Assembly (NCBI GenBank): GCA_031260665.1
Contig: JAISLD010000026.1
Span: forward strand, 1-64,000
Length of the DNA: 64,000 nt
DNA from: Oscillospiraceae bacterium
GTDB lineage: Bacteria > Bacillota > Clostridia > Oscillospirales > Ruminococcaceae
Direction of reading: 5' to 3'
Made by a program: the position numbers and the translations under genes. Below, in pieces: positions 46,612 to 57,800 of the stretch (the first letter of the stretch is position 1; each line of letters begins with the position of its first letter). The notes below the pieces were generated by a model. It was not told the DNA's origin and did not search any database. It saw only the letters and a program-made list of their open reading frames with translations.

Positions 46612-47309
46612 TGTTCAGCTTCAGCCGATTGCCCACACCTGTTGGCTACATCGTCTTTGTGGTGTTAGTCTCGGCGATAGTCGCGGCAATCTGGCTCGTA
46701 TGCGGAAGAATCCGCAAAACGAAGATACGGCGTGGTGTTCGTATGATTATCAGTATTGTCGTCGCTGTCGCCTTGCTTCTGTTCGTCGTGGCGCTCGTGC
46801 CTGTCGTCAATGCCGCAAAGGGCGCGACTTACGCCGACACGGACTACGCGTTAGTTCTCGGCAACCAAATCAAGGGAACAACCCCGACAACCATGCTGAC
46901 AGAGCGGCTGTCTGTCGCGATTGACTGGCTGGACAGCCACCCAAACGGCAAGGCGGTGCTGTCGGGCGGTCAAGGCAAAGGCGAGGATATCGCCGAAGCT
47001 GAAGCGATGTATGCGTGGCTTGTGCAGCAAGGAGCGGACGGCGACAGGCTGATACTTGAGGTCAAGTCAACGTCAACTATCGAAAACGTCCGCTTCTCAA
47101 AGGCTCTGCTCCCCGACAACACCGCTGTCGCTATCATCACAAGCGACTATCACCTTAAACGCGCATACGACATATGTCTGCGTGAGGAACTCGCGGTTGC
47201 GGCGATTATCCCGGCGAAAACCACGCACCCGCTTCTTGCCGCCAACAACTATATCCGCGAAACGCTGATTGCGCTTTATATGTGGGTATTTCCAAACTAC
47301 GAATCTTGA
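46611..47309 (+). CDS. YdcF-family (DUF218) membrane protein
   Basis: The 232-residue product has two N-terminal membrane helices (about 12-32 and 42-66) and a DUF218/YdcF domain: YALVLGNQIKGTTPTTMLTE, KAVLSGGQGKGEDIAEAEAM and AVAIITSDYHLKRAYDICL with the conserved SDYH. The family includes SanA/ElyC, which affect envelope integrity; the activity is not established. The ATG at 46611 overlaps the previous stop by one base (TGATG), so it is coupled. Confidence 0.9.
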   Translation: MFSFSRLPTPVGYIVFVVLVSAIVAAIWLVCGRIRKTKIRRGVRMIISIVVAVALLLFVVALVPVVNAAKGATYADTDYALVLGNQIKGTTPTTMLTERLSVAIDWLDSHPNGKAVLSGGQGKGEDIAEAEAMYAWLVQQGADGDRLILEVKSTSTIENVRFSKALLPDNTAVAIITSDYHLKRAYDICLREELAVAAIIPAKTTHPLLAANNYIRETLIALYMWVFPNYES

Positions 47310-47317
47310 ATCTTAAA

Positions 47318-48649
47318 ATGAACAACATACATACTTATAAGCAACTCGGAATGAACATTGCCCTCGACCCTTGTTCGGGGGCGGTTCATGTGGTCGACGA
47401 CGAAACCTATGCGCTTCTTGAAACAGGCAAGCCGCCGTTTGACGAGAACACAGACGCGGGTTTGCAGCTGAACAGCCTAATCAAGGCGGGTCAGCTGTTC
47501 AGCGAGGACGACTATCAACGGTTTGCCGGTGTGACCGCGAACGCGCCGATAAAGGCGCTCTGTCTGCACGTCGCCCACGACTGCAACCTTCGTTGCGGCT
47601 ACTGCTTCGCAAGCACAGGCGACTTTGGCACAGAGAAACGCGGACTGATGAGCAAAGCCACGGCAAAGCAGGCGATAGACTTTTTGGTCGAAAACAGCGG
47701 CGACAGGGTGGAACTTGAGTGCGACTTCTTCGGCGGCGAACCGCTTATGGCGTGGAACACCGTGACAGCGGCAGTAGACCACGCGCGCTGTCTTGAGAGG
47801 ACACACGGCAAGCACTTTCGGTTCACTATAACCACCAACGGGATTCTCCTTGACGACGACAAGATAGACTACATCAACGAGAATATGTCAAACGTGGTGC
47901 TGTCGCTTGACGGACGGCGCGAGGTTCACGACCTTATGCGCCCCACGGCAAACAACAAAGGCAGCTATGACGTTGTGCTTCCCAAATTCAAACGCTTGGT
48001 TCAGAAACGAAACAAACTCGGCTTCACCGATTATTACGCGAGAGGGACGTTTACTAAATACAACCTTGATTTCGCAAACGATGTGCTTGCGATTGCCGAC
48101 GAGGGATTCAAACACATATCGGTGGAACCCGTGGGCTGTGATGAGAGTGAACCTTACGCTATCACTCGCGCCGATATGCCGCTTGTTCTCGCTGAATACG
48201 ACCGACTGCTTTCTATCATCGCGACACGTCCCGACATAAACTTCTTTCACTTTAACATAGACTTGGACCAAGGTCCTTGCGCGGTCAAGCGGCTGCGGGG
48301 CTGCGGCGCCGGCAGTGAATACTTCGCGGTCACACCCGAAGGCGACGTTTATCCTTGTCACCGATTTGTCGGTATTGAAAACCACAAAGCGGGCAACCTA
48401 ACCACGGGTGTGAAAAGTGCCGTGAAAGAATACTTCGGCGGCACACACATCTATTCAAAAGAGAACTGCCCCTCTTGCTGGGCACGGTTCTACTGTTCGG
48501 GCGGCTGCAACGCCGCGTCTTATTTGTTCCGCGGCGACTGCAAGAAGCAAGTGGACACCGACTGCTCGCTTATGCAAAAGCGAACCGAGTGCGGCATCGC
48601 CCTTGCCTGCAAGAAAGCGTTGTCACACAATGATTTAAGCAAAAGTTAA
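47318..48649 (+). CDS. scfB: Radical SAM/SPASM maturase, SCIFF thioether type
   Basis: SCIFF maturases install Cys-Thr thioether links in a small cysteine-rich peptide found across Clostridia. The 443-residue product has the N-terminal family text GMNIALDPCSGAVHVVDDETY and the radical SAM motif CNLRCGYC with cluster Cys at 89, 93 and 96. It then shows CDFFGGEPLM, ITTNGILL and a SPASM region (GDVYPCHRFVG, ENCPSCWARFYCSGGCN, DTDCSLM). The ATG at 47318 is preferred to a GTG inside ydcF, although its ribosome-binding site is weak. No precursor gene (scfA) is seen beside it. It ends a unit that begins with cysE-cysS. Confidence 0.9.
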   Translation: MNNIHTYKQLGMNIALDPCSGAVHVVDDETYALLETGKPPFDENTDAGLQLNSLIKAGQLFSEDDYQRFAGVTANAPIKALCLHVAHDCNLRCGYCFASTGDFGTEKRGLMSKATAKQAIDFLVENSGDRVELECDFFGGEPLMAWNTVTAAVDHARCLERTHGKHFRFTITTNGILLDDDKIDYINENMSNVVLSLDGRREVHDLMRPTANNKGSYDVVLPKFKRLVQKRNKLGFTDYYARGTFTKYNLDFANDVLAIADEGFKHISVEPVGCDESEPYAITRADMPLVLAEYDRLLSIIATRPDINFFHFNIDLDQGPCAVKRLRGCGAGSEYFAVTPEGDVYPCHRFVGIENHKAGNLTTGVKSAVKEYFGGTHIYSKENCPSCWARFYCSGGCNAASYLFRGDCKKQVDTDCSLMQKRTECGIALACKKALSHNDLSKS

Positions 48650-50371: not shown

Positions 50372-50623
50372 TTATTCGGCGGAAACTGCCGCCTCTGGAG
50401 CGATAACTTCCACTGTCGGAAGCGACTTGGAAACTGTGCCCGCTCTGGTCACTTTGCCTGAACGCAGGCATCTTGTGCAAGCGTGGACACGCGTGGGCGT
50501 GCCGTCAACCACGGCTTTCACTTTCTGGACATTGGGCTTGAAGGTGCGGTTGTTTCTTCTGTGTGAGTGTGAAACCTGTATCCCGAACGCCACGCCTTTG
50601 CCGCAGAAATCGCATTTTGCCAT
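50372..50623 (-). CDS. rpmB: 50S ribosomal protein L28
   Basis: The 83-residue product begins MAKCDFCGKGVAFGIQVSHS, has RRNNRTFKPNVQKVKA and ends after CTRCLRSGKVTRA with an acidic Ala/Val/Glu extension of about 15 residues. Two CxxC pairs form a zinc site. A strong AAAGGAGA site precedes the ATG. Confidence 0.97.
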   Translation of the reverse strand: MAKCDFCGKGVAFGIQVSHSHRRNNRTFKPNVQKVKAVVDGTPTRVHACTRCLRSGKVTRAGTVSKSLPTVEVIAPEAAVSAE

Positions 50624-50670
50624 TATCGTTCTCCTTTCGTCATACTGCGCACAAATAGAGCGCGTTCTTC

Positions 50671-50699
50671 ATTGTATCATAAAAAGACAAGCTTGTCAA
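50671..50699 (-). promoter_or_regulatory. Sigma-A promoter of rpmB-rpmE
   Basis: Reading leftward: TTGACA (50699-50694), a 17-bp spacer and TACAAT (50676-50671). Confidence 0.85.
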
Positions 50700-50735
50700 G
50701 TGGCATATAAGCAGAGATTCCACTCCTGCGTGTTT

Positions 50736-50849
50736 GGCACGGACTTGAACATATGTTAAAGTGTATCTATATAGCTTATTGCCCGTCCGGCACGGACTTG
50801 AACATATGTTCAAGTGTATCTGTTAGCTTATTGCCCGTCCGGCACGGAC
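50736..50849. repeat. Tandem repeat, about 2.2 units of 53 bp
   Basis: Units GGCACGGACTTGAACATATG...GCTTATTGCCCGTCC at 50736-50788 and 50789-50840, plus a partial third (50841-50849). Each unit contains a TTGAACATATGTTCAA palindrome (one base off in unit 1) and a GTCC/GGAC hairpin across the joint. It lies between the divergent rpmB and rlmB promoters. Confidence 0.85.
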
Positions 50850-50855
50850 CGAGTG

Positions 50856-50884
50856 TTGCAATTAAACGTGATTTGTGATATACT
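50856..50884 (+). promoter_or_regulatory. Promoter of rlmB
   Basis: TTGCAA (50856-50861), a 17-bp spacer and TATACT (50879-50884). The start codon is only 7 nt after the -10, so the mRNA would be leaderless or nearly so. Confidence 0.6.
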
Positions 50885-50890
50885 TGTAAT

Positions 50891-51652
50891 ATGAATGTTT
50901 ATGACACAGAAGCCCTGTTTGGGAAAAACGCGGTCACGGAAGCACTGCGTGCAGAGCTTGCCGCCGACACGCTTTACGTCGCCGCCAAACAAGGCGGTCT
51001 GACTGAAATAATCACGTTGGCAAAGGAACGCGGCGCGGTCGTCAAAGAAGTGCCGCTTGATAAGTTGTCTGCTCTTTGCGGCAACGCGAAACATCAAGGC
51101 GTGGTGCTGACGATAGCTTCGGCTCAGTACGTTTCAGTCGAAGAACTGTTGTCACACGCCGAAGCACGCGGCACCAAACCGCTGCTCGTCATCGCGGACG
51201 GCATTGAGGACCCGCACAACCTCGGTGCGATTATTCGCTCGGCTGAATCGGCGGGTGCTGACGGGCTGATTATTCCGAAGCGAGGCGGCGTGTCGGTGAA
51301 CGGCGCGGTGTTTCGCGCTTCCGCGGGTGCGGCGGCGCACCTCAAGGTCTGCAGAGCGACAAACCTGAACGACACCGTGCGTTTCCTCAAGGACAACGGT
51401 GTCTGGCTTTACTGCGCCGCGATGGACGGCGAGGTTTACACCAAGCAGGACTACACGGTGGGAACAGCGTTTGTTATCGGTTCGGAGGGTCGCGGCGTGT
51501 CGCGGCTGCTTCGACAGAACTGCGATGCTGTGGTGTCGCTGCCGATGAACGGCAAGATTAACTCGCTTAACGCGTCTGTTTCTGCGGGGATATTTCTATA
51601 CGAAGCGATAAGGCAACGACAAAGTGGTTTGGAGAAACTGAATGTCAGATAA
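50891..51652 (+). CDS. rlmB: SpoU-family rRNA 2-O-methyltransferase (RlmB type)
   Basis: The 253-residue product has a short N-terminal substrate-binding domain (LFGKNAVTEALRAELAADTL) and a SPOUT knot domain. Motif 1 is DPHNLGAIIRSAESAGADGL, motif 2 is FVIGSEGRGVSRLLRQNCD and motif 3 is LPMNGKINSLNASVSAGIFL. Known members methylate G2251 of 23S rRNA. No ribosome-binding site is visible before the ATG and the promoter -10 is 7 nt upstream, which would suggest leaderless initiation. Its end overlaps the next gene by 11 nt. Confidence 0.93.
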   Translation: MNVYDTEALFGKNAVTEALRAELAADTLYVAAKQGGLTEIITLAKERGAVVKEVPLDKLSALCGNAKHQGVVLTIASAQYVSVEELLSHAEARGTKPLLVIADGIEDPHNLGAIIRSAESAGADGLIIPKRGGVSVNGAVFRASAGAAAHLKVCRATNLNDTVRFLKDNGVWLYCAAMDGEVYTKQDYTVGTAFVIGSEGRGVSRLLRQNCDAVVSLPMNGKINSLNASVSAGIFLYEAIRQRQSGLEKLNVR

Positions 51653-54600
51653 AATTTCAGTTGACGATATACTCGCCGAAGTTGACCGACGGCGCGATAT
51701 TCAGCCGGGACGGCGACCTTTGCCGTCTTATGGCGGCGACAGCGCGACCGAAATACTGAGCGGGCTGACGAGCGCACCCGCCAAGGCTGACGTCACTATC
51801 GTTGATGTAGGTGTGAAACCCGCACACGAACACGAAGAAGAAAGCGCGACTTCCATTTTGGACACGCTGATTCCAACCGCGCTTCTCCCGAAAGAAAAGC
51901 TGACCGAAACAATAGTCAAAGTCACCACCGCACCCCTTGAAGAACTGTTTCGTGCCGCTGTTCCGCCCGAAACAGACGAACTGCCGCCGATAGAACACGA
52001 TGAGCTGTCCTTTATCAAGCCGCGACCGAACCTGTTTGGCGACAGACAGCCGCTTCATGATGAACCGAACGTGGTGGCTGACGAAAAACGACCGAAACGG
52101 CCAAGCGAGTTGACACCGGGAACAGGCGTGTTTCAAAAGCCGCAGAAGCAGATTCACCGCGTCAAAGCGGACGACACCGCCGAACCTTTCGGCGACACGG
52201 CAGCCGCGGCGAAGAAGCCGAAGCCGCGTTATTCAGTCGCAGACAACAACGACAGCCGCAACAAAACGCCAAAGCCCTCGTTCACGTCAACTATCGCGGG
52301 GTTTGATTCCCCAACCGCCGACAACATCTCCGTGCCTGTTCGTAAAACCGAGAACAAAGGCGGCAACAACATAACGGCGCAAAACGACCAGACGTTTGTG
52401 TTTCCGCTGTTTTCACGCAAGAATCTCTCAAAGCAGCAGCAGCAAACGCCGCCGCCAAAGCCCGAGCCGCACCACGTCGTCCACACGGACGTGATGGAAA
52501 ACAACCCCGACGAACTTATCGGGGCGATTTCGGCATCTCTTCCTCTTCCGCTTCCGAAAGAACCTAAAGTCGATACCGCGCCGTTTTCGGGCGACACACT
52601 CGGCATTGTGGGCGACGATTTGAAAGAAATCTCCGCTAAAGCGGCGGACGAACACTTCGCCGACTTGCCGACCGCTGAAAGCGAGCCAATCACAGCGGAA
52701 ACCGACATAAAAGAATACGAGCCGACTGCCGACGAACCGACGCCGCATAAGTCGTACTTATCTAAGAAAAGCAACACCGCTTTAATTGAAAACCTCAACC
52801 GCTCCCTCAAGAAACGCCTTGCCGATGAAACCGCGACGCTGAACGTCCGTCCACCGAGAAGCGACTCGGCACACACCGCGCCGCTTATCCCGGCGAGCGA
52901 GTTCGACCCAAGTGACGGACTGCCCGGTGTGGTGGACGGCGCAATCGAAACGACGTCAGAGATGGCGGAGAAGGCGTTGCGTTCACTAAACAACAAGCGG
53001 AAGCGGAAAATCAGCGACTTTATTTTTGACGGGGGCGCGGAAACCGACGACGACGAGCCGTTCAGCCGTGACGACGATTCGGCTGTCCGCGAGGACGCCG
53101 ACGAAATGCGCACAATGCTTCGCACGCAACATGCGGGGCTGTTTTGGCGACTCTGCGTGCTTGTCTTGCTGACACTCGGCACCGCCGCTGTCACGTTGTT
53201 CAACGATTTGGGCGTGAACCTCGCCTATCGTATCGCGGGAACAGACATAGGCACCGCGTTTCTTAACCGCCGATACGACACGTTCGGCTATGTGATGACC
53301 AATATGCTTGCCGTCGCCCTCGGTGTCGTTGTTTGTTCGGGTGCCGTGAGAGACGGGCTTGTTCGTTTGTTCACGGGTCACGCCGACTGCGACAGCATGG
53401 CGGCTGTCGCCGTGATTTTGCCTGTGCTGTCAATGGTGCCCGCACTCGGCAACTTTGACCTCGTGCAACGCGGCGTTGTCGGGGTGTATACCACTGCCGC
53501 ACTCGCCGCTCTCCTCTTTAACACAATGGGCAAATTCCTCGCTACTCTCCGTATGAAACGCTGCCTGTCCGCGGTCTACACTAACCGTGACCGCTACTTC
53601 GCCGACCTGCTTGACTATGACGAAGCCGACGTGTTCCTCAAAGGCACGGTCAGCCGCGCACCGCTTGCTGTTCGCCGCAAAGCGGGCGTGCTTACGGGTT
53701 TCCCCGATGATTGCTATAAAAACGACTATATGGACGGCATTTGCCGACTGCTTGTCCCGATAACCATTGGTGCGGCGGCACTTGTCGGCATTGCTTCTTA
53801 CTTCTCGCCGTTTCTCGGCGGAGGTGAAACCCGCAACATCGTCTACGCGCTCGCTTCGTTTTCTGCTGCGATATCGGCGCTCTGTCCGCTTTGCGTGTCG
53901 CTGATTGCAAACTTCCCGCTTCACAAAGCCAACAAAGCACTCGCTGACGAACACTCAGCGCTCCTCGGCTATCCTGCCGCCGCTCACTTCAGCGAAGTCG
54001 GCGCGATAATGGTGGACGCGAAGAACCTGTTCCCCGAACACGGTATCGTGTTTCACAACTTCCGCAAGCTGAAGAACCCCAATTCAGTCGCCGAGTATTC
54101 ACCCGATGAGATATTCATCACGGCGGCAAGCCTTGCCAAAGCGGGCAACTCGGTGATGTACGAGATGTTCCGCGACGCAATCAACGGCGACCATGAGTCG
54201 CTGCTGAAACCGCTTGACAACGTGGTCTACGAAGTCAATATGGGGCTGCTTGGTTGGCTTGGGCGCAAACGCGTGCTTCTCGGCAACCGCGAACACATGA
54301 AGCACCACGGTATCAAGGTAGTTGACCGCAAGAAAGAGCAGGAGTTCGTGTCCGACAACGGCGACGCTGTCTATCTTGCAATCGGCGGCGAAGCTGTCGC
54401 TTTGTTTCATATCGAGATAGGCGCGGAGGGGCGCACCACCGCGGAGTTCGCCGCGATAAAATCTCGGCTTGAACAGCTTGACAAACTGCACGTTGGGTTG
54501 ATTGTCCGCACAAATGACTCTGTCGTCACGGTCAACCGACTTGCCGAGTTGTTCGACATCGACCCCGAACGTATGCGTGTTCTTCCGTTTGAAGCGCACG

Positions 54601-54890
54601 CCCGGTTTGAAGAAGCGACGCGGTATGTCCCTGTCGGCGACGGTTCACTCACCACAGGCGGCGGCTTCACCTCGCTGGCACGCGGCGTGGTTTCCGCGAA
54701 GAAAATCGTTGATTCAATCAAAAAGTCGGTCGCTTTGCTTTACGTTTATATGTTCGCGGCGTTCTTCTTGCTGTTTTTCTGCGCTTTCTTTGGGGCGGCA
54801 GGCGTTATCGGCGGCACAAACATCCTGCTAATCAACGGCGGCTTCCTCGCGCTCGTCGTTTTGGCGCAAAGCCTCAACAATTATAATTAG
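51642..54890 (+). CDS. Degenerate P-type ATPase-like membrane protein with long disordered N-terminus
   Basis: The 1082-residue product has a polar, low-complexity region (about 1-490, rich in Pro, Asp, Glu, Lys) followed by a body laid out like a P1B metal ATPase. Four helices (about 500-640) come first, then two around ISALCPLCVSLIANF (CPLC at 748-751, where CPC is usual), a cytoplasmic region and two C-terminal helices. The phosphorylation motif DKTGT is replaced by DAKNL (Asp792). No TGE loop is seen in the A-domain position. LLGNREHMKHHGI resembles the nucleotide-domain GN motif, and PVGDGSLTTGGGF stands where GDGxND is expected. It is probably not a pump. The role is unknown; it is coupled to rlmB and addA. 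Confidence 0.75.
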   Translation: MSDKISVDDILAEVDRRRDIQPGRRPLPSYGGDSATEILSGLTSAPAKADVTIVDVGVKPAHEHEEESATSILDTLIPTALLPKEKLTETIVKVTTAPLEELFRAAVPPETDELPPIEHDELSFIKPRPNLFGDRQPLHDEPNVVADEKRPKRPSELTPGTGVFQKPQKQIHRVKADDTAEPFGDTAAAAKKPKPRYSVADNNDSRNKTPKPSFTSTIAGFDSPTADNISVPVRKTENKGGNNITAQNDQTFVFPLFSRKNLSKQQQQTPPPKPEPHHVVHTDVMENNPDELIGAISASLPLPLPKEPKVDTAPFSGDTLGIVGDDLKEISAKAADEHFADLPTAESEPITAETDIKEYEPTADEPTPHKSYLSKKSNTALIENLNRSLKKRLADETATLNVRPPRSDSAHTAPLIPASEFDPSDGLPGVVDGAIETTSEMAEKALRSLNNKRKRKISDFIFDGGAETDDDEPFSRDDDSAVREDADEMRTMLRTQHAGLFWRLCVLVLLTLGTAAVTLFNDLGVNLAYRIAGTDIGTAFLNRRYDTFGYVMTNMLAVALGVVVCSGAVRDGLVRLFTGHADCDSMAAVAVILPVLSMVPALGNFDLVQRGVVGVYTTAALAALLFNTMGKFLATLRMKRCLSAVYTNRDRYFADLLDYDEADVFLKGTVSRAPLAVRRKAGVLTGFPDDCYKNDYMDGICRLLVPITIGAAALVGIASYFSPFLGGGETRNIVYALASFSAAISALCPLCVSLIANFPLHKANKALADEHSALLGYPAAAHFSEVGAIMVDAKNLFPEHGIVFHNFRKLKNPNSVAEYSPDEIFITAASLAKAGNSVMYEMFRDAINGDHESLLKPLDNVVYEVNMGLLGWLGRKRVLLGNREHMKHHGIKVVDRKKEQEFVSDNGDAVYLAIGGEAVALFHIEIGAEGRTTAEFAAIKSRLEQLDKLHVGLIVRTNDSVVTVNRLAELFDIDPERMRVLPFEAHARFEEATRYVPVGDGSLTTGGGFTSLARGVVSAKKIVDSIKKSVALLYVYMFAAFFLLFFCAFFGAAGVIGGTNILLINGGFLALVVLAQSLNNYN

Positions 54891-54891
54891 A

Positions 54892-57800
54892 ATGAATTTT
54901 ACACCCGAGCAACAAACGATAATCAACCGCAAAGGCACATCAGCCGCTGTTTATGCCTCGGCAGGCAGCGGCAAGACCGCAGTGCTTGTGGAACACCTCG
55001 CGAAGATTATCGCGGACGAATCGGCAAACCTGCCTGCAGACACGATTGTAGCCGTCACGTTTACTGAAAAAGCCGCCGCTGAACTATCAGAGCGGCTTGA
55101 GAAGCGACTGTCTGAACTCGTAAGTGAACACGACGACGCCTACCTCTCGCTTCAACTGAAGCGACTGCCTGACGCGAGAATCTCAACGATTCACTCACTC
55201 TGTGCTTCTATACTGCGCCGCTTCCCTGAAGAATCAGAAGCGGGCGACTTTGCTGTCTGCGATGAAGCGAGAGCCGCGGAGTTTCGCCGTGAAGCACTGA
55301 CGTTCGCGATGGAAAGCCTGTACGACAGCAAAACATTCAGCGAGAGCGAGTTGTCCGCGCTGAATTTGGTGTCGGCGGGTCGTGAGAACGACTTGACGGC
55401 GGCACTCACCTCGCTGTCAAACACTCTCGCCAATATCCCCGACCAAAACGGCTGGCTCGACACGAACGCCGCCGTGTTTGATAATTACAAAACATACTTT
55501 GACAAGATATTCGCGGTGTTTACGCCGCTGTTTCAGAACAAACAGCGCGAGTATTACAACGAAGCGCATACGCTTGCCGACAAGTTGTTTCAGCAACTGA
55601 AAAGTTATCCCACGGCACAAGCCGTGGTAGAAAGCGACTTGTCGCTTATCGCTTCGGCTTTTCGTGAGAATTGGAAAGAAAAGCCGACGTTTTCGCGGGC
55701 AAACTATAACGAACTGCGTGACGACCCCGACTTCAAGGAAGAAATAAAGAAAACCCGCGACAACTACAAGCGGCTGACCGAGAAACTTTGCAACCACAAC
55801 AAACTGCTTCCTGTCCTTGTCAACTCGTTTGACGAAGCGCGCATTCTCCTTGCACCCGCTGTTGCCGCCTTTGTGAAAATGTATCGCGTGTTTGCGGCGA
55901 AACTGCGCGAGCTGCTGACCGCCGAGAACCTGCTGACTTTCGACGACTTGCAGCACTACACGCTGAACTTGCTTAACAAAAGCGAGGAAGCGGCGGCGGA
56001 ACTTCGCGGTGAGATATCGCTGATTGCGGTCGATGAGTTTCAGGACAGCAACGAACTGCAGTTTCAGTTGTTTCGTCTGCTGTCTCACAATGAACAAAAC
56101 ATCGTGGTTGTCGGCGACGTAAAGCAGTCAATCTATCGATTTCGCCGTGCCGAACCAAAGGTTTTCATCGACCTCAAGTCGCACAACAAGTTTGTTCCGC
56201 TTTATCTCAGCGGCAACTTTCGTTCGGCTGATGAGGTGATTTGGACGGTCAACGATGTGATGTCGCACAATATGACGGCTGACTTTGGCGGCGTTGACTA
56301 CAAAGGCGGCGAGGTCTTGCGTCCTATGCTTGGCATTGCGGGCGAGCCGACGGAGTTGGTTGTGCTTGAACAAGACGACGTTTCAGAAGAAAACTACATC
56401 GCGGCACGGATAGAAGAACTTGTCTGCACGGGATTCGCGTTTGTTGACAAAAGCGGGCAGACAAAACGGCTTGACTATGGGGATATCGCGATTCTCGCTT
56501 CTTCGCTTGACGGCAGCGATATGTTTGGCGACAAAATGGCGGAAGCACTGCGTTCACGCGGGATTCCCGCTTCACGAGAGAAAGGCGGCGGTTACACCGC
56601 GAGCCGCGAAGTCGCCGCCGCACTCGACTTTTTCACTGCGGCAGTCAACCCGTATGACGACTTTGCGCTTTTCTCCGCAATGCTGTCCCCAATCGGTGGC
56701 TTTTCGCTTGAAGAAATCGCCGCGCTTCGCTTAGACAAGCGGTTCTCGCTCATTGTCGAGGTGCGGCGCGACAAGACCGACAAATCAAAAGGCTTCGCCG
56801 CTTTGCTCGACAGCGTCGCTGATTCGGCAAGGGAGAACGCCGCGTCCGACATTATTTCGCGGTGTGTTGACGACGGGGTGTTCAGCCGACTGATTGCCTC
56901 GTCGCCGTATCCGAAGAAAGCGTTGGCAAACCTGCGCCTCCTTGCCGCCCATGCCGGCAACTTTGGGGCGAACAACTCGCTGTCCGACTCGCTTCGGCGG
57001 TTCAAGTCGCAGAGTTTGCCGGGTGCGGGGGGAAGCGGCGGTGCGGTCAATATACTGACGATTCACAAAGCGAAAGGGCTGGAGTTTCCGCTTGTGTTTC
57101 TCGCGAAAGCCGCAAAGAGTTACAACCGCGAGGAAGAACGCGGCAATATGCTGTTTGACGGGAAAATCGGGTTCGCTTTTCGTTATATCCACGATAATCT
57201 GGTTCCGTTTGAAACTATGGCGCACAAAACGGCGGTCTGGCAAGCAGAACAGGACGCGAAGAGCGAGGAGCTGCGCAAACTCTACGTGGCACTCACACGG
57301 GCACGAAACAAGCTGATAATCACCGCGAAAGCACCGCCCAAAGGGCATTGCTACTTAAACTTGATACGAAAAGCGAGTCACTTCAAGGAAATATCTCCGA
57401 GTCTTTCATTCAAAAGCGCCGCGGCAAACGCGCCTGTAGAAGCAAAAGCGCCTGTCGTGGCTGAAAAGTTCGTCTACTCACGCGAGCCATTGACGGAGAT
57501 ACCGAGGAAGTTCACGGTCACGCAGATAGGAATTGAACACGAAACGGTGCTGAAAAACAAAAGCGCACCGACTGTTTTCCCGAAGCGGCCATCGTTTATC
57601 GCGGAAAAGCGGCCACTGAGCGGCAAAGAACGCGGCGACGCTTATCACAAGGCAATGCTGCTGCTTGACTTCAAGTCGAACGAATCGGTTCAGTCACAGC
57701 TTGAGCGGATAAAGCACAGGTTTTCACCGCAAGAATTTCACGCGGTTTCGCCCGATTTAATCGAGCAGTTCCTCTGCTCACCGCTTGGCGACCGCGTGAA

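Follow-up and report, generated by a model that had tools for sequence, protein, structure and literature searches.

A P1B-type ATPase body without the motifs of a pump is conserved behind rlmB across one bacterial order

What keeps the gene of a metal pump in a genome when the residues needed for pumping appear to be gone? This question is raised by a stretch of 64,000 nucleotides from an Oscillospiraceae bacterium (positions 1 to 64,000 of contig JAISLD010000026.1, GenBank assembly GCA_031260665.1; hereafter the window), in which an uninterrupted open reading frame with an ATG start at 51642-54890 (+) encodes a protein of 1082 residues, here called the pseudo-pump, directly behind the rRNA methyltransferase gene rlmB. 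The original prediction had proposed a repurposed P1B-like membrane body with lost phosphorylation chemistry, coupled to rlmB and addA. The predicted fold and the motif losses across the family support the repurposed body, neither of the two findings named beforehand as refuting it (an unrelated fold, orthologues with DKTGT) having turned up, and we rate it at roughly even chances that the protein is a non-transporting membrane scaffold or receptor which works with RlmB or with the 50S precursor modified by RlmB. In this reading the loss of pumping is read from the sequence and the partnership from gene linkage, and contact and tethering at the membrane are what we infer.

Direct searches with the window protein yielded little. 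No Pfam family was found at E <= 1, a sequence search of the PDB returned three chains up to E 5 with no P-type ATPase among them, and in NCBIfam the CopA model matched residues 697-982 weakly (E 9e-6), well short of its cut-off. The score against the curated CopA model PRK10671 was 25.8 bits at a cut-off of 1316, so that the curated P1B cut-offs are not reached. The protein consists of a polar extension (residues 1-494) and a conserved core (residues 495-1082). The AlphaFold2 model of the core has eight long membrane-type helices in the 4+2+2 order that had been expected, and helix 6 is broken at CPLC. The predicted fold is that of a P-type ATPase, with CopA ranking top in a VIA-align structure comparison of the matches listed by Foldseek, and a profile alignment with P1B-type ATPases is collinear over 531 columns. 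Among 31 diverse family members, 26 were matched by the CopA exporter model at E <= 0.01 (best 4.9e-17) and seven by PF00702 at the same threshold. By common ancestry and fold the protein belongs to the P1B-type ATPase superfamily.

Motifs were counted in 126 distinct sequences, 67 at genus level (window included) and 59 from elsewhere in the order, after duplicates had been removed by their last 250 residues. The phosphorylation motif DKTGT is present in none of the 126 cores and in none of 23 further open reading frames, three of them from loci or genomes that had been covered before; no sequence of the 126 has the K, the G or the second T, and the alignment places DAKNL of the window at the DKTGT column, as proposed. 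The letters DKTGT in two close relatives (L010/L053 and L012/L051) are confined to the N-terminal tail and were rejected as a live phosphorylation site, since they lie outside the P domain and represent a chance occurrence. The hinge GDGxND was found in 0/126 cores. The whole segment is deleted relative to true pumps, so the GDG of the window, mostly GSG in genus members, is not the hinge remnant for which it had been taken. No core contains the metal motif CPC or CPH: at this column the first C is present in 7/126, C or H at the second position in 2/126 and the helix-breaking P in 105/126, and CPLC, although correctly placed, is not a motif of the family. For SEHP the histidine was found in 0/125 and the glutamate in 7/125, the P-domain lysine in 1/123 and the G of TGD in 0/124. 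The window protein lacks TGE, as had been noticed, and the letters TGE in 13 of the 126 cores stand at scattered columns, four of them inside the stub of the actuator (A) domain at differing columns. Just behind the former phosphorylation site the family has a new motif of its own, FP (F 118/126, P 111/125). DKTGT, GDGxND, TGE in the A domain, SEHP and CPx, by which a P1B-type enzyme is recognised, are thus missing family-wide, which indicates loss of the pumping chemistry. Because no examined orthologue has DKTGT in its core, this loss is, as far as sequences can tell, family-wide and old, and the P1B body should be unable to form an aspartyl phosphate, to be dephosphorylated or to use a transmembrane metal site.

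Several residues of the ancestral enzyme have been retained. The aligned phosphorylation aspartate is found in 81/126 sequences (67/67 at genus level, the window among them, and 14/59 elsewhere in the order) and the D of TGD in 121/124, as would suit a protein that still pumps or facilitates transport by unorthodox chemistry. Such activity has been argued for human ERMA/TMEM94, and in its available text one paper reports Mg2+ uptake for this protein, which lacks TGES and carries DKQGI and GSSANL (PMC13322241). We regard an unorthodox pump as very unlikely, since the phosphorylatable aspartate is lost in 45 of the 59 order-level sequences within one family, neither hinge nor TGE nor CPC ligands remain, and a cryo-EM study, again in the text available, disputes even the TMEM94 case (PMC12134183). 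In the N-domain the second G of GxG (G868) is kept in 123/125 sequences and the G of GN (G881), which the window carries at the expected column, in 125/125. ATP or another nucleotide could accordingly bind there and drive a domain movement that signals to partners, catalysis being lost. The near absence of SEHP, the retention of the N of GN in 43/125 only and the possibility that the glycines are structural turns speak against a nucleotide-binding sensor, which seems unlikely to us.

The census of the window's order, probably Oscillospirales, was run at a threshold of E <= 1e-45, at which remoter pseudo-pumps would escape. A full-length pseudo-pump was found in 137/147 genomes, and in 113/118 of those with good quality. 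It is present as a single copy per genome (in G492 as two pieces on two contigs), and its carriers span 24 families; the record titles of the order point to animal guts and rumens. In a class-wide draw 9/245 genomes carry the gene, all nine in the same order, and no match outside it was found in this draw at the threshold used, 216 of the 245 not being itemised, so that a same-order genome without a match may be among them. Profile searches found members that a single query missed (the latter recovered 52/60 relatives). In a tree of 85 sequences and 282 columns the family is monophyletic and cleanly split from 17 true pumps with support 1.0; eight true ATPases (all those without the CPC motif) and one family fragment (L267) had been left out for too few columns. 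P-type ATPases above the Pfam cut-off coexist with the pseudo-pump in 13/13 genomes searched; the window's own genome has three such ATPases.

One remote case, encoded at L183 3412-5292 (-) (G374:C15) in another family of the phylum, is a pseudo-P1B-like protein of 622 residues from the first ATG, with a profile score of 102.7 bits and a PF00702 score of 54.3 bits. It retains HP and GCG, and no DKTG, GDGxND, CPC or TGES was found in it and no rlmB was recognised adjoining it. It is a second pseudo-P1B-like protein and probably an independent one.

The lost motifs, together with one in-frame stop in the matched frame of 3/137 genomes (TGA in G057, locus L032 at G057:C38; TGA in G503 at G503:C4; TAA in G552 at G552:C35), could be taken to mark a decaying relic of a copper pump. 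Each stop is possibly a frame-breaking mutation, an assembly error or a recoding event. Among 27 pairs, the 14 closest gave the core a ratio of non-synonymous to synonymous substitution (dN/dS) of 0.026-0.097, which is purifying selection and bears out the earlier argument that a complete 1082-residue frame speaks for selection; in the extension dN/dS is looser (0.06-0.21). Given this constraint, the presence in 137/147 genomes and the gain of FP, we attach practically no credence to decay. A chance reading frame or pseudogene was rejected on the basis of 136 orthologous loci (not all from different genomes), purifying selection and distribution.

In 132/136 family loci (some genomes counted twice) rlmB stands immediately upstream on the same strand, with a negative gap in 18 loci and a gap of 0-50 bp in 96. 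The four loci without an adjoining rlmB comprise two that are cut by contig ends, L142 with 584 bases of apparently non-coding DNA upstream, and L239. A search of these 147 genomes for the two genes found both in 135, neither in eight, the pseudo-pump only in two and RlmB only in two (Fisher's exact p = 4e-10, the genomes not being independent owing to shared history). In each of the four discordant genomes the genes lie at the end of a contig: the start of the pseudo-pump is visible behind rlmB in G455, the end of rlmB before the pseudo-pump in G519, the pseudo-pump frame reaches the contig end in G539, and 229 bases are left behind rlmB in G039. In 128 of the 135 genomes the two genes share a contig and a strand, rlmB being upstream, and in six of the remaining seven the pseudo-pump frame reaches a contig end or stops no more than 80 bases short of it. 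Where the contigs allow a test, rlmB is directly upstream in 128/129 genomes. The genomes without either gene are G453, G460, G490, G494, G516, G530, G553 and G558, and G001, a genus member without the pseudo-pump, also lacks RlmB above the cut-off.

No other neighbour is common. The next gene cluster reaches seven of 32 loci, at scattered positions; the clustering took an antisense frame over rlmB in four of these 32, all of which do have rlmB. Coupling to rlmB as originally predicted is therefore near-universal, whereas addA was rejected as a conserved partner: it had no match in 100 other loci, some of which end soon after the gene, and its linkage looks peculiar to the window. There the ATG of the pseudo-pump sits within the last codons of rlmB, with an overlap of 11 bases. 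A consensus scan of 50600-55100, which is weak evidence, found no promoter-like site on the + strand between the promoter-like site before rlmB and the end of the pseudo-pump gene. With the frames overlapping or closely spaced, both proteins are probably made from one transcript.

The extension in front of the core varies from 0 to 610 residues in the family, so the 490-residue disordered N-terminus first described stands as a polar extension of the window protein and not as a family constant. It is shorter than 60 residues in 6/126 sequences (including L032, where only a fragment follows an in-frame stop) and hence not essential, and a function shared by all members must, on this comparison, lie in the core. 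A DDIL-type pattern occurs within the first 120 residues of 62/67 genus-level and 15/59 other sequences. Two ABC-2 type permeases (PF01061) of two genus members, at L082 229-1539 (-) and L179 1370-2866 (-), start with MSDKFSIDDILAE followed by a long polar tail. Furthermore, the Ala/Pro-rich tail of a signal peptidase II (PF01252) at L294 586-1539 (+) (G524:C5) terminates in the DDILAE-like EYSLEDILAEFRDI. As a general tag DDILAE was rejected, because matches to its DNA pattern were mostly the pseudo-pump plus unrelated proteins (by eye MutS-like, EF-Ts and others). The two permeases and the signal peptidase II tail are plausible true sharers, and the motif common to the pseudo-pump and the permeases is possibly a docking motif.

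By sequence the protein may be either a sensor or a scaffold, and its close linkage to rlmB speaks for a partner or scaffold role. That genomes across the order retain one such gene, nearly always right after rlmB, suggests reuse of the body for a role connected with ribosomes. The P1B-type ATPase body has become a core gene in this order, present once per genome. According to the proposal, it would be expressed with RlmB from one transcript, and RlmB or the 50S precursor would dock on it at the membrane via the cytosolic P and N domains and, where present, the N-terminal tail. In its most far-reaching form, to which we give a low probability, the pseudo-pump would be an order-wide membrane platform for ribosome maturation that captures RlmB and late 50S particles, the former transport cavity perhaps contacting membrane segments of new proteins, and membrane-located 23S rRNA methylation or 50S quality control would be a lineage-specific step.

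Several points weigh against a partnership of this kind. Conserved gene pairs can reflect shared expression only, the aspartate itself persists, and the surviving glycines leave binding of a ligand possible. Co-absence is weak independent evidence and adds less than adjacency, because adjacent genes can vanish in one deletion or assembly gap; of the eight genomes without both genes, four are less than 80% complete and four more than 90% (G490, G558, G516 and G530, the first two from the same genus). Moreover, both genes persist apart in G036, the only true separation, so adjacency is not strictly required. A job unrelated to RlmB, for example as an envelope scaffold, with the pair held only by shared expression or overlapping frames, is a serious though less probable alternative. 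Overlaps and small gaps make separating the genes costly, their survival apart in G036 fits it, and the DDILAE-type motif on the permeases and the signal peptidase II tail hints at an envelope partner. On the other hand, the pair holds throughout the testable genomes but one, across 24 families, while flanking genes shuffle. In G036 the pseudo-pump follows obgE, another 50S-linked gene. The gene is found next to obgE in one family of the order (loci L239 and L344), the arrangement in G544, a relative of G036, being obgE-rlmB-pseudo-pump.

Among known proteins, the P1B-type ATPases CopA and ZntA share with the pseudo-pump the 4+2+2 topology, the P and N domains and the helix broken at the CPx place. 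The pseudo-pump differs from them in lacking DKTGT, GDGxND, CPC and the SEHP histidine. Its A domain is no more than a stub that lacks TGE, an optional polar tail stands in front, and the window protein scores far below the curated CopA cut-off. TMEM94/ERMA of animals is likened to it by description and not by sequence: the available text of two papers gives a P-type fold with an altered phosphorylation loop, no TGES, a changed GDGVND and a disputed function (PMC12134183, PMC13322241). TMEM94/ERMA is eukaryotic, has ten membrane helices and an A-like domain, and is most like SPCA according to its structure paper; in the available text neither paper connects it with an rRNA methyltransferase. 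The P4-ATPase-like domain of Plasmodium guanylyl cyclase alpha is, as far as the available text goes, another P-type body that is connected with signalling and not just with pumping, but it is fused to a cyclase and still has the conserved Asp, and the paper argues that it is an active enzyme (PMC7858053). RlmB, the constant and co-occurring neighbour, is a protein of a different kind, a SpoU family methyltransferase. Among the papers listed from the open-access literature, which misses most subscription papers, there was no bacterial pseudo-P-type ATPase and no link of one to RlmB. To our knowledge, a bacterial family of catalytically dead P-type ATPases has not been described before, and the pairing with rlmB is a new finding.

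The features of the locus are collected in Table 1. Elsewhere in the window, 47282-48649 (+) encodes a SCIFF peptide maturase (TIGR03974, 578.8 bits, cut-off 425); a crude scan of the window recognised no SCIFF precursor peptide nearby.

Table 1. Coordinates of the rlmB/pseudo-pump locus and of the parts of the encoded protein.
Feature	Positions	Strand	Basis
Promoter-like site TTGCAA-17-TATACT directly 5' of rlmB	50856..50884	+	Consensus scan only
rlmB, 23S rRNA (guanosine-2251-2'-O)-methyltransferase, conserved partner gene	50891..51652	+	TIGR00186 220.8 bits, above equivalog cut-off of 160.15; linkage
Pseudo-P1B-ATPase gene, 1082 residues	51642..54890	+	Open reading frame, AlphaFold2 model, profile alignment, fold comparison
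N-terminal polar extension, residues 1-494; 62 K+R, 88 D+E; rich in P, D, A, E; optional in family	51642..53123	+	Sequence composition
Short linear motif SVDDILAE, residues 6-13	51657..51680	+	Sequence pattern
Predicted membrane helices 1-4, residues 496-645	53127..53576	+	AlphaFold2 model
Stub replacing A domain, without TGE, residues 646-694	53577..53723	+	AlphaFold2 model, alignment
Predicted membrane helices 5-6, residues 695-768	53724..53945	+	AlphaFold2 model
CPLC at metal-site CPC column, residues 748-751	53883..53894	+	Alignment
DAKNL at DKTGT column, residues 792-796; the family-specific FP comes next, 797-798	54015..54029	+	Alignment
N-domain, residues 797-927; without the SEHP histidine; two glycines retained, G868 (the second in GxG) and G881 (in GN)	54030..54422	+	Alignment, structure comparison
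TND at TGD column, residues 957-959; D retained, G lost	54510..54518	+	Alignment
GDG, residues 999-1001; not homologous to GDGxND, which is deleted	54636..54644	+	Alignment
Predicted membrane helices 7-8, residues 1009-1077	54666..54872	+	AlphaFold2 model

As members of the family match the copper-exporter model CopA, they are open to erroneous annotation as pumps. In its order the family occurs in almost every genome, as one copy and under strong constraint, and its partner gene is named by genomics. If the proposed role with RlmB or its 50S substrate is true, the scaffold of a P-type pump would be retainable for reasons other than transport.

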